A program made the position numbers and the translations under genes. Shown here piece by piece: positions 7,471 to 10,154 of a DNA stretch of 64,000 bases. Origin of the DNA: Haladaptatus sp. QDMS2 (GTDB taxonomy: Archaea > Halobacteriota > Halobacteria > Halobacteriales > Halococcaceae); NCBI RefSeq assembly GCF_029338295.1, contig NZ_CP119791.1:806001-870000 (forward strand), given 5' to 3'. Position 1 is the stretch's first letter. Each line of letters starts with the position of its first letter. The notes below the pieces were generated by a model. The model was not told where the DNA came from. It did not search any database and saw only the letters and a program-made list of their open reading frames with translations.

Positions 7471-7799
7471 TGGTTCGCACACGAGACTGTGACTACTGTG
7501 GCGACGACATTGAGCCCGGGACGGGCACGATGTTCGTCTTCACTGACGGACGTACCGTAAACTACTGCTCGTCGAAGTGCGAGAAGAATGCCGAACTCGG
7601 CCGCGAGTCCCGCAACCTGCGCTGGACCGAAGAAGGCCGCCGCGTCGGTGGCACGAACAAACGCGCAGCCGAGAAGGCAGACGCCGAAGCCGCAGCTGCC
7701 GCCGAGGCAGCAGCAGAAGAGGAAGAAGCGGAGAACGCAGACGCTGCGCCTGACCTCGAATCTGCCGAGGCCGAGGACGACGAGGAGACCGAAGAATGA
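7470..7799 (+). CDS. rpl24e: 50S ribosomal protein L24e with long acidic C-terminal tail
   Basis: The first ~62 residues are a canonical L24e zinc ribbon: [21 protein letters not shown] with two cysteines, then [14 protein letters not shown] with the other two. After residue ~65 comes an Ala/Glu/Asp-rich tail of about 45 residues, likely disordered. The gene overlaps rps28e by one base and ndk by four, so it is translationally coupled to both. Ribosomal function is secure; the tail has no recognised motif. Confidence 0.95.
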
Positions 7800-8260
7800 G
7801 CGACCACGAGCGCACCTTCGTGATGGTCAAGCCGGACGGCGTCCAGCGTGGCCTCATCGGCGACATCGTCTCCCGCTTCGAGGACCGCGGCCTGAAGATG
7901 GTCGGCGGCAAGTTCATGCAAATCGACCAGGAGCTCGCCCACGAACACTACGGCGAGCACGAGGGCAAGCCCTTCTTCGAGGGCCTCGTCGACTTCATCA
8001 CCTCCGGACCGGTCTTCGCGATGGTCTGGGAAGGACAGGACGCGACGCGTCAGGTCCGCGGCATGATGGGCGAGACGGACCCCGCAGACTCCGCCCCGGG
8101 CACCATCCGCGGTGACTTCGGCCTCGACCTCGGCCGCAACGTCATCCACGGCTCGGACCACGAGGACGAGGGCGCGAACGAACGCGAAATCGCGCTCTTC
8201 TTCGACGAGGACGAACTCGTCGACTACGAGCGCATCAACGAAGGCTGGCTGTACGAGTAA
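7796..8260 (+). CDS. ndk: Nucleoside diphosphate kinase
   Basis: Ndk transfers the gamma-phosphate between NTPs and NDPs through a phosphohistidine. Features are [16 protein letters not shown] at the N-terminus (the Lys-Pro-Asp motif), the [20 protein letters not shown] stretch, and the active-site NVIHGSD near residues 116-122. The length of 154 is normal. It overlaps rpl24e by four bases and closes the operon. In many archaea infB follows at this position; here the anomalous 8.3-9.3 kb island follows instead. Confidence 0.96.
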
Positions 8261-8331: not shown

Positions 8332-8668
8332 CCGAATCGTTCAATTTCGGTAGGAAATTCCTATCTTCGAGAATTACCGGACCCACAGGTTCTCACCGAC
8401 GGCCTCCACCGCTCGCGATACGCCGAATGGATTTCCTACGGCAGTCTCATCGCAGACCTCGGCAGCCGTCACGTCGAGATGGACTCCATCGCGGACCGTC
8501 TGCATCGATTCGGGAAAGCGCGTCGTGTACGACCGCGAGAGCGACCTCTACGGCGTCCTCGACGGCGAGACGCTCTATTTCTATGCGACCGGGAAGGAGG
8601 AGCACGCTCCAACCAAGCTGGACTCGCCACCGGGCAACGCTCGACCCGAACTCTCCGACGAGCAGTGA
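8332..8668 (+). pseudogene. Frameshifted remnant of an unrecognised small gene
   Basis: One frame is open from 8332 and reads PDPQVLTDGLHRSRYAEWIS ... SLIADLGSRHVEMDSIADR with protein-like composition, then degrades into Arg-rich sequence near 8510. The next frame takes over near 8490-8505 as IDSGKRVVYDRESDLYGVLD ... GETLYFYATGKEEHAP and ends at TGA 8668. No start codon is visible at the left. The two pieces read as one acidic haloarchaeal protein broken by a frameshift. I do not recognise the family. Its place in the island suggests a decayed insertion rather than part of the ndk operon. Confidence 0.35.
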
Positions 8669-8899
8669 TGACGGACCGACCTTGGACTTTCTTTCACCCC
8701 TTCTTCGCGGAGATTATGTATTCTTGAGGGAGTGCCATGATACTCTCCGAGTATTCTCAGAATCACCACATAAATATTACAAATTAAATTTGTAAATAAT
8801 AACTCTGTCCTAACATCGTTCACTGATTCTGTTTTCTCAGACTATCGTGGGGGATTTATCATTTTTATTGAGAATTTTCGGAATGGGTACATTTATGCT
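8669..8899. other. AT-rich gene-free stretch
   Basis: This stretch is much richer in A/T than the flanking genes and contains no convincing reading frame. It includes a long AT palindrome at 8777-8795, listed separately, and several T runs. ATTTATGC at 8891-8898 resembles a TATA box and could start a transcript near 8920 through the hairpin array. Low GC content in a haloarchaeal chromosome is common where foreign DNA has inserted, but no transposase or integrase is visible. Confidence 0.5.
8777..8795. repeat. Perfect 8-bp inverted repeat with 3-bp spacer
   Basis: TTACAAAT-TAA-ATTTGTAA is a perfect dyad at 8777-8784 and 8788-8795. It could be a regulator-binding site or a mobile-element end. 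No gene starts within 500 bp downstream, so a simple operator role is not obvious. Confidence 0.6.
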
Positions 8900-8962
8900 C
8901 TCAGCGGGTAATTTATTGCTTGTGTCCTGTTGGGGGCGCAAGGCGGGAATCGACCCGCTGAG
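8900..8962. repeat. 9-bp inverted repeat enclosing a tRNA T-arm-like hairpin
   Basis: CTCAGCGGG at 8900-8908 is the exact reverse complement of CCCGCTGAG at 8954-8962. Inside it GCGGG at 8943-8947 can pair with CCCGC at 8954-8958. Read on the minus strand this inner hairpin is GCGGG-TCGATT-CCCGC, close to a tRNA T-arm (loop one base short), followed by CTTGCGCC like an acceptor strand. No complete tRNA surrounds it. Confidence 0.45.
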
Positions 8963-9012
8963 CCGAACGTGACTGGAGTCGCGAAACGGTGACACGAGGT
9001 TGAATTGTACAC

Positions 9013-9225
9013 TGGTCCGGGGGGACCAAAAACCAACTTGGGGGATGGCTCGGGGGAGCCAACAAGTGGGAGAATGTTCGACCGGTTCGGGGGGACTGGC
9101 GACGAACAAACGCGTTTCGGGGGAAATGCAAACTGGTCCAGGGGGACCAACAAATTGGGGGCTCGCACACCGTTCGGGGGGACGCGTGTGCACAACGGAA
9201 ATCGGGTGGTTTCGGGGGGAGCCAC
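9013..9225 (+). repeat. Array of seven hairpins with conserved GGGG-type loop and variable stems
   Basis: Seven hairpins follow each other with loop-to-loop spacings of 33, 37, 30, 21, 36 and 38 nt. Loops are GGGG at 9019, 9052, 9089, 9119, 9176 and 9214 and AGGG at 9140, each four nt long and closed by a C-G pair. Stems are 9013-9018/9023-9028, 9046-9051/9056-9061, 9082-9088/9093-9099 (with an outer stem 9076-9080/9103-9107), 9112-9118/9123-9129, 9134-9139/9144-9149, 9165-9175/9180-9191 (one bulge at 9185) and 9206-9213/9218-9225. Examples are TGGTCC-GGGG-GGACCA and TGGCTC-GGGG-GAGCCA. Stem sequences differ but pairing is kept, and six pairs are G-T as read on the plus strand. I know no family that matches. 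Confidence 0.75.
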
Positions 9226-9293
9226 AAGGGGTGGACGAGTTGCAAAAGAGGCACCGTCCGGGCAAGGAACTATTCTGTGTCGGTCATGGTAAC

Positions 9294-9335: not shown

Positions 9336-10154
9336 ATGGACGAATTTCAGGAAGCGAACCGTCAAAATTGGGAGGAACGCGCTGCGTTGCATCCCGGGAC
9401 GGATTTTTACGACGTCGATGGATTCCTCGCCGGAGCGTCGACGCTCAAACCACTCGAACGCGAGGAGCTCGGTGACGTCGCGGGGAAATCACTGCTTCAC
9501 CTCCAGTGTCACTTTGGACTCGACACGCTCTCCTGGGCGCGCGAGGGGGCCACGGTCACCGGCGTGGACTTTTCGGAAACCGCTATCGAGAAAGCGAGAG
9601 AACTCAGAGACGAGACGGGACTCGATGCGAGATTCATCGCCGCGAATATCTACGACCTCCCAGCGCATCTCGACGACCAGTTTGACATCGTGTTCACCTC
9701 CTACGGGGTGCTGTACTGGCTTCCAGACATCGAGGGGTGGGCCGCCGTCGTCGCGCATTTCCTCGCCCCCGGCGGGACGTTCTACATCGCCGAAATTCAT
9801 CCCTACACCGGCTCGCTGGCGTCGCTCGACGCAGCGGGTAACGCGACCTTCGAGTTTCCGTACTTCCACGAGGAAGACCCACTGCGCTTCGACGAGGACG
9901 GCTCCTACGCAGACCCGGACGCCGAGTTCGACCACGCGACGACCTACGAGTGGTTCCACAGCATGAGCGACATCTTGACGGCGCTGCTCGACGCGGGTCT
10001 GGACATCGAATTCGTCCACGAACACCCCTTCGCCACGTTCCAGATGTTTCCGACGATGGAACAGGCCGACGATGGCTGGTGGTACGTGCCGGGTCTCGAA
10101 ACGAACCTGCCGTTTACCTTCTCGCTCAAAGCGACGAAACCGGCGCAAAAATAG
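9336..10154 (+). CDS. Class I SAM-dependent methyltransferase
   Basis: This 272-residue protein has a Rossmann methyltransferase core: motif I LLHLQCHFGLDTLSWAREGA at about residues 53-72, an acidic loop in TGVDFSETAIEKAR, and motif IV-V DIVFTSYGVLYWLPD. Motif I reads HLQCHFGLD, as in ubiquinone/menaquinone-type and YcgJ-like methyltransferases, so small-molecule methylation is likely, but the substrate is unknown. The C-terminal half has an aromatic-rich lid. The frame is open back to about 9000 through the hairpin array; ATG 9336 is preferred because homology-like sequence and a TATA box begin here. Confidence 0.8.
   Translation: MDEFQEANRQNWEERAALHPGTDFYDVDGFLAGASTLKPLEREELGDVAGKSLLHLQCHFGLDTLSWAREGATVTGVDFSETAIEKARELRDETGLDARFIAANIYDLPAHLDDQFDIVFTSYGVLYWLPDIEGWAAVVAHFLAPGGTFYIAEIHPYTGSLASLDAAGNATFEFPYFHEEDPLRFDEDGSYADPDAEFDHATTYEWFHSMSDILTALLDAGLDIEFVHEHPFATFQMFPTMEQADDGWWYVPGLETNLPFTFSLKATKPAQK

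Follow-up and report, generated by a model that had tools for sequence, protein, structure and literature searches.

A candidate structured RNA restricted to Haladaptatus, with a GGGG-loop hairpin module expanded in one lineage

RNAs that use the loops of several hairpins to sequester a protein form a well-established class (PMC7652899). Of the described systems, the bacterial CsrB/CsrC and RsmX/Y/Z RNAs (PMC7652899, PMC4005645) come closest to the haloarchaeal locus described here, since they too carry a series of hairpins with one loop motif on variable stems, and since the copy number of their motif can change, as it does here. There are also differences: the CsrB/RsmZ loop motif is A-N-GGA whereas the loops here read C-GGGG-G, with GGA found only in the 3' arm of stems; the host is archaeal, not bacterial; the candidate adds a conserved 5' three-way junction and a 3' element; and in two relatives it carries a single motif, unlike the CsrB/RsmZ series. 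CsrA (PF02599) was not found in this genome or in either relative, in a search whose controls matched in E. coli, B. subtilis and T. maritima. Because the loops are not A-N-GGA and CsrA was not found, we do not regard the locus as a member of the CsrB/RsmZ family.

Within the archaea, the haloarchaeal intergenic small RNAs (PMC7002113) resemble the candidate in intergenic site, putative archaeal promoter signal, size range and lack of an assigned function; they are known from transcriptomes, whereas the present candidate is known from sequence alone. Archaeal RNase P and SRP RNAs are likewise structured and of similar size in haloarchaea; both were considered and rejected as identities, since each (RF00373 and RF01857, respectively) scores above cut-off elsewhere in all three genomes. 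(A second, sub-threshold SRP RNA match of 26.5 bits lies on contig C1 at 154314-154465, apart from the true SRP RNA.) Rfam 15 at gathering score found only a tRNA in the window (the whole 64,000-nt stretch of the Haladaptatus sp. QDMS2 chromosome that was analysed), and with a lax E-value neither the locus nor its counterpart in the first of the two congeners, G001, gave a weak match that was credible. To our knowledge, no global sponge-RNA system has been described in archaea; the literature searched yielded none, nor any haloarchaeal small RNA with a repeated G-loop hairpin.

The locus contains a plus-strand array of seven C-[A/G]GGG-G hairpins at window positions 9013-9225, with stems of 5-8 bp:

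9013..9028, plus strand: H1, TGGTCC-GGGG-GGACCA
9046..9061, plus strand: H2, TGGCTC-GGGG-GAGCCA, with outer stem CTTG/CAAG
9082..9099, plus strand: H3, CCGGTTC-GGGG-GGACTGG, with outer stem TGTTCG/CGAACA spanning 9075-9108
9112..9129, plus strand: H4, GCGTTTC-GGGG-GAAATGC
9134..9149, plus strand: H5, TGGTCC-AGGG-GGACCA, a near copy of H1
9171..9184, plus strand: H6, CGTTC-GGGG-GGACG, with outer stem GCACAC/GTGTGC; its tip is that of the single G001 hairpin
9206..9225, plus strand: H7, GTGGTTTC-GGGG-GGAGCCAC

All seven loops are of 4 nt (GGGG in six, AGGG in one) and all are closed by C-G; successive hairpins start 22-37 nt apart; and six stem pairs are G-T on the plus strand (two each in H3 and H7, one each in H4 and H6). 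A sequence-only reading of this DNA had reported these hairpins, all of which are where it placed them, with these loops, closures and six G-T pairs and a near-regular spacing of 21-38 nt. Its picture of the units needs minor correction: the seven tips stand, three of them (H2, H3 and H6) extend into outer stems, and H1 and H5 share one duplicated stem. Unpaired stretches also share a recurring TTGGGGG motif, found once in the 5' domain (8932-8936) and twice in array linkers (9040-9044, 9157-9161).

Chance does not account for such an array. The observed counts are seven hairpins with stems of at least 5 bp and six with stems of at least 6 bp; the maximum in 5000 dinucleotide shuffles of 9000-9240 was two, as it was in 5000 further shuffles with the G-runs kept as blocks, so that the shuffling proposed with the sequence-only reading bears it out. 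Arm pairing is unit-specific, every arm fitting its own partner best: when the 3' arms were permuted, with H5 omitted as a near copy of H1, the native order alone out of 720 reached 35 of the 36 pairs. Across nine hairpins (the seven here and one from each congener) there are 10 compensatory cells, against 2.8 +/- 1.3 in shuffles; none of 500 shuffles was as high, a count that is no probability because the hairpin units are mutually related. Changes on both sides occur at four of six stem positions, slid registers fail, and what stays constant among the hairpins is the loop and the closing C. The earlier observation that the stems differ from unit to unit yet stay paired is borne out. Folding of the region gave z-scores against shuffles of -5.5 for the plus strand and -4.4 for the minus strand and, taken as a single strand of either chemistry, the plus strand folds better.

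The array is likely the middle of a longer candidate RNA gene of about 343 nt, at about 8920-9262, whose further features and neighbours are as follows:

7796..8260, plus strand: ndk (nucleoside diphosphate kinase; PF00334), upstream, in conserved synteny
8892..8897, plus strand: TATA-like box TTTATG, putative promoter of the RNA, found in all three congeners 22 nt before P1
8920..8997, plus strand: 5' three-way-junction domain, with the same stand-alone fold in all three species
8920-8931 with 8985-8997: its stem P1, with one bulged base
8935-8937 and 8942-8947 with 8954-8959 and 8962-8964: its stem P2
8968-8973 with 8978-8983: its stem P3
9233..9259, plus strand: predicted 3' hairpin GGACG..CGTCC; G001 and G002 have a related hairpin with a bulge
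9247..9262, plus strand: 3' element AGAGGCACCGTCCGGG, 16 nt, putative end region of the RNA, identical in the three congeners
9336..10154, plus strand: class I SAM-dependent methyltransferase (PF08242/PF13649/PF08241), downstream, in synteny within the genus

The locus is very probably a structured RNA gene, and its transcription as a separate RNA is something we infer from these features. The distance from TTTATG to the first base of P1 (TTGTGTCCTGTTGGGGGC) is exactly 22 nt in all three species, with the intervening bases differing; this is the spacing expected between an archaeal TATA box and a start at that base. A scan for bacterial-type promoters and terminators gave nothing above chance. 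The 5' domain, 73-78 nt long, takes the same three-way-junction shape when folded alone in each of the three species. Its covariation in the three orthologues shows no excess over shuffles, as computed on a draft structure in which P1 has 7 bp (a later fold extends P1 further), and it is the shape common to the three species, the slid-register control and the constraint on the ends that speak for this domain. In the predicted fold of the whole RNA, mean stem probabilities are 0.75-1.0 and loops are unpaired at 0.82-1.0. The earlier suggestion of a structured noncoding RNA is supported by the fixed-distance TATA-like box, by conservation of both the 5' domain and the 3' element, and by the compensatory pairing of the plus strand. 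That the RNA binds a protein at several sites, another of the earlier suggestions, is possible. A protein-coding explanation was tried and set aside: an open frame that starts at 9000 stays open as far as the methyltransferase and continues in it, but the 112 residues it adds have no Pfam match, and the array is not preserved in the relatives. As this through-running frame has no Pfam match, the array region is unlikely to code.

Comparison with the two congeners separates what is conserved from what has grown. The order ndk, RNA, methyltransferase is the same in all three genomes; G001 and G002 carry one G-loop hairpin each against seven here, and their candidate RNAs measure 168 and 163 nt against 343 nt. 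The single hairpin (CCGTTC-GGGG-GGACGG in G001; CGTTCGGGGGCACG in G002, with a mismatch at the pair adjoining the closing pair) is carried by a long outer stem, the sequence of which is different in every species. Between G001 and G002 the 5' domain is 93% and the 3' element 100% identical, against 46% for the upstream DNA and 57% for the middle, which indicates that the ends of the RNA are under constraint. At these homologous loci, to which the sequence-only reading had pointed as a check, one G-loop hairpin is conserved; the array as such is not, and it forms the inner part of the ~343-nt RNA. Between ndk and the RNA, at 8384-8668, this genome also has extra DNA resembling a broken small gene; G001 and G002, where the intergenic DNA is shorter, showed none of it.

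Near copies inside the array indicate that it grew by duplication and that the copies then drifted with compensation: H1 and H5 with their flank are 84% identical over 31 nt, and H2 and H7 are 75% identical over 20 nt. Because H6 and the G001 hairpin have identical tips, the ancestral copy is probably H6, to which the other six were added; alternatively, extra hairpins may have been lost in both congeners. The same duplications are visible at the level of DNA, where the inverted repeats exist too, and it could be argued that the locus is a DNA element (for recombination, replication or protein binding at inverted repeats) or a functionless by-product of repeat slippage. This we consider very improbable: the six G-T pairs would disrupt pairing on the other strand, the plus strand folds better in either chemistry, and chance is excluded by the shuffles; moreover, the conserved ends, the TATA-like box and the unchanged synteny speak against it, as do searches that found no match in phage records and nothing beyond a chance match in plasmid records. 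The recombination site that had been suggested for the array, in particular, finds no support, since synteny is unchanged in relatives carrying one hairpin.

The constant position of the methyltransferase invites the thought that the RNA is a long leader, a cis-regulatory RNA of that gene that senses or binds something. It lies on the same strand, upstream of the gene in all three species, across a similar gap of 73-79 nt, and G001 and G002 share 79% identity in this spacer. In all three species another copy of TGTGTC (at 9275-9284 here) follows the 3' element AGAGGCACCGTCCGGG; by competing for GACAC against the 5' strand of P1, it might act as a switch. Against this, the spacer of this genome is just 50% identical to that of G001; an AT-rich stretch (judged by eye) some 25-35 nt before the methyltransferase start would permit the gene a leaderless mRNA of its own; and species-specific growth of an array is atypical for a ligand sensor. 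On balance a leader is unlikely. A search for homologues of the methyltransferase elsewhere returned none from the genus.

The G-runs themselves may be thought to matter by stacking, within or between RNAs, into quartets contributed by loops and linkers, with the high internal potassium of haloarchaea as an aid. Archaeal G-quadruplex motifs (PMC7565180) are likewise dense G-runs on one strand; here the runs lie in the loops of covarying stems, and quartets are not favoured by the predicted energies in this species. The array has ten runs of at least four G in 241 nt, and the G4Hunter check proposed with the earlier reading finds the highest 200-nt mean of the window at the array (1.0, against a window mean of 0.015, sd 0.16). 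In the congeners, three G-runs follow directly 3' of the hairpin, in a G-rich linker (GGGGACGGGGTAGGG in G001, GGGTAAGGGATAGGGG in G002) that brings the RNA to at least four, and the fold of G001 is slightly better with a quartet (-69.3 vs -67.6 in ViennaRNA). For this RNA and that of G002, however, ViennaRNA leaves the best fold unchanged when quartets are allowed, with parameters that are not meant for multi-molar KCl; the array has no motif of four G3 runs with short spacers; and quartets alone leave the complementary, covarying arms unexplained. The quadruplex proposed earlier is thus not favoured in the RNA of this species, and as the function of the locus we hold it improbable.

The loops might instead act by base pairing, the GGGG(G) of each serving a small RNA as a seed for C-rich stretches of mRNA, with seven of them widening or strengthening targeting. 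The loops are predicted to be open, a single one would suffice in the congeners, and the RNA has fifteen runs of at least three G and one CCC, so that the G-runs are free of internal partners. A four-base G seed is poorly specific in a GC-rich genome. We hold this function to be rather unlikely.

Searches beyond the locus confine the candidate to its genus. A covariance model built on the 5' domain and run on 392 genomes of the order recovered the three congeners, with E from 1e-17 to 1e-24, and nothing convincing beyond the genus; the next-best matches examined looked by eye like coding DNA and lacked the other features. Each congener has one exact copy of the 3' 16-mer, and none of the others of 146 genomes of the order has any; its one-mismatch matches lack the 5' motif, and that motif with two mismatches is unspecific, a control giving as many matches. 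No such RNA was seen 3' of ndk in the 15 further genomes of the family that were inspected. A three-fold TCGGGGG pattern, sought in viral contigs and across the order, otherwise matched largely exact tandem repeats, and none of the TCGGGGG loci examined had as many as three such hairpins on stems that differ. Scans with the 5' domain of genome and viral contig collections, which possibly lack near relatives, found none. We present the locus as a new candidate for a structured RNA, restricted to the genus, in which a GGGG-loop module has expanded in one lineage. The host itself has close relatives in Haladaptatus sp. YSMS36 and DYSN1: its contigs C2 and C3 are large plasmids 98-99.5% identical to plasmids of those strains, with 99.3-99.5% identity over 18 kb for C2, although the taxonomy used places Haladaptatus litoreus in another family.

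As to mechanism, a multivalent decoy or scaffold RNA seems to us the most likely, and we put it forward tentatively. The RNA would be transcribed from its own TATA-like box and would consist of the 5' three-way junction, the central G-loop hairpins and the 3' hairpin. Because the loop and the closing C-G are constant and the stems change with compensation, a partner, either an RNA-binding protein or another RNA, would read the loop and need only some stem beneath it. Duplication from one site to seven would raise valency, and the RNA would titrate its partner in the manner of CsrB or RsmZ. The single hairpin of two of the three species implies that multivalency is unneeded for whatever is conserved. 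It is possible, if doubtful, that the locus is an independently evolved archaeal counterpart of CsrB with a C-GGGG-G loop code of its own, expanded from one to seven within the genus.

If true, an archaeal counterpart of CsrB would imply an RNA-binding regulator in haloarchaea that has so far escaped recognition, and the constant G-loop would be the bait with which to fish out the partner. The genus itself offers a natural experiment, with the same locus and the same ends presented at a valency of one in two congeners and of seven in the third.
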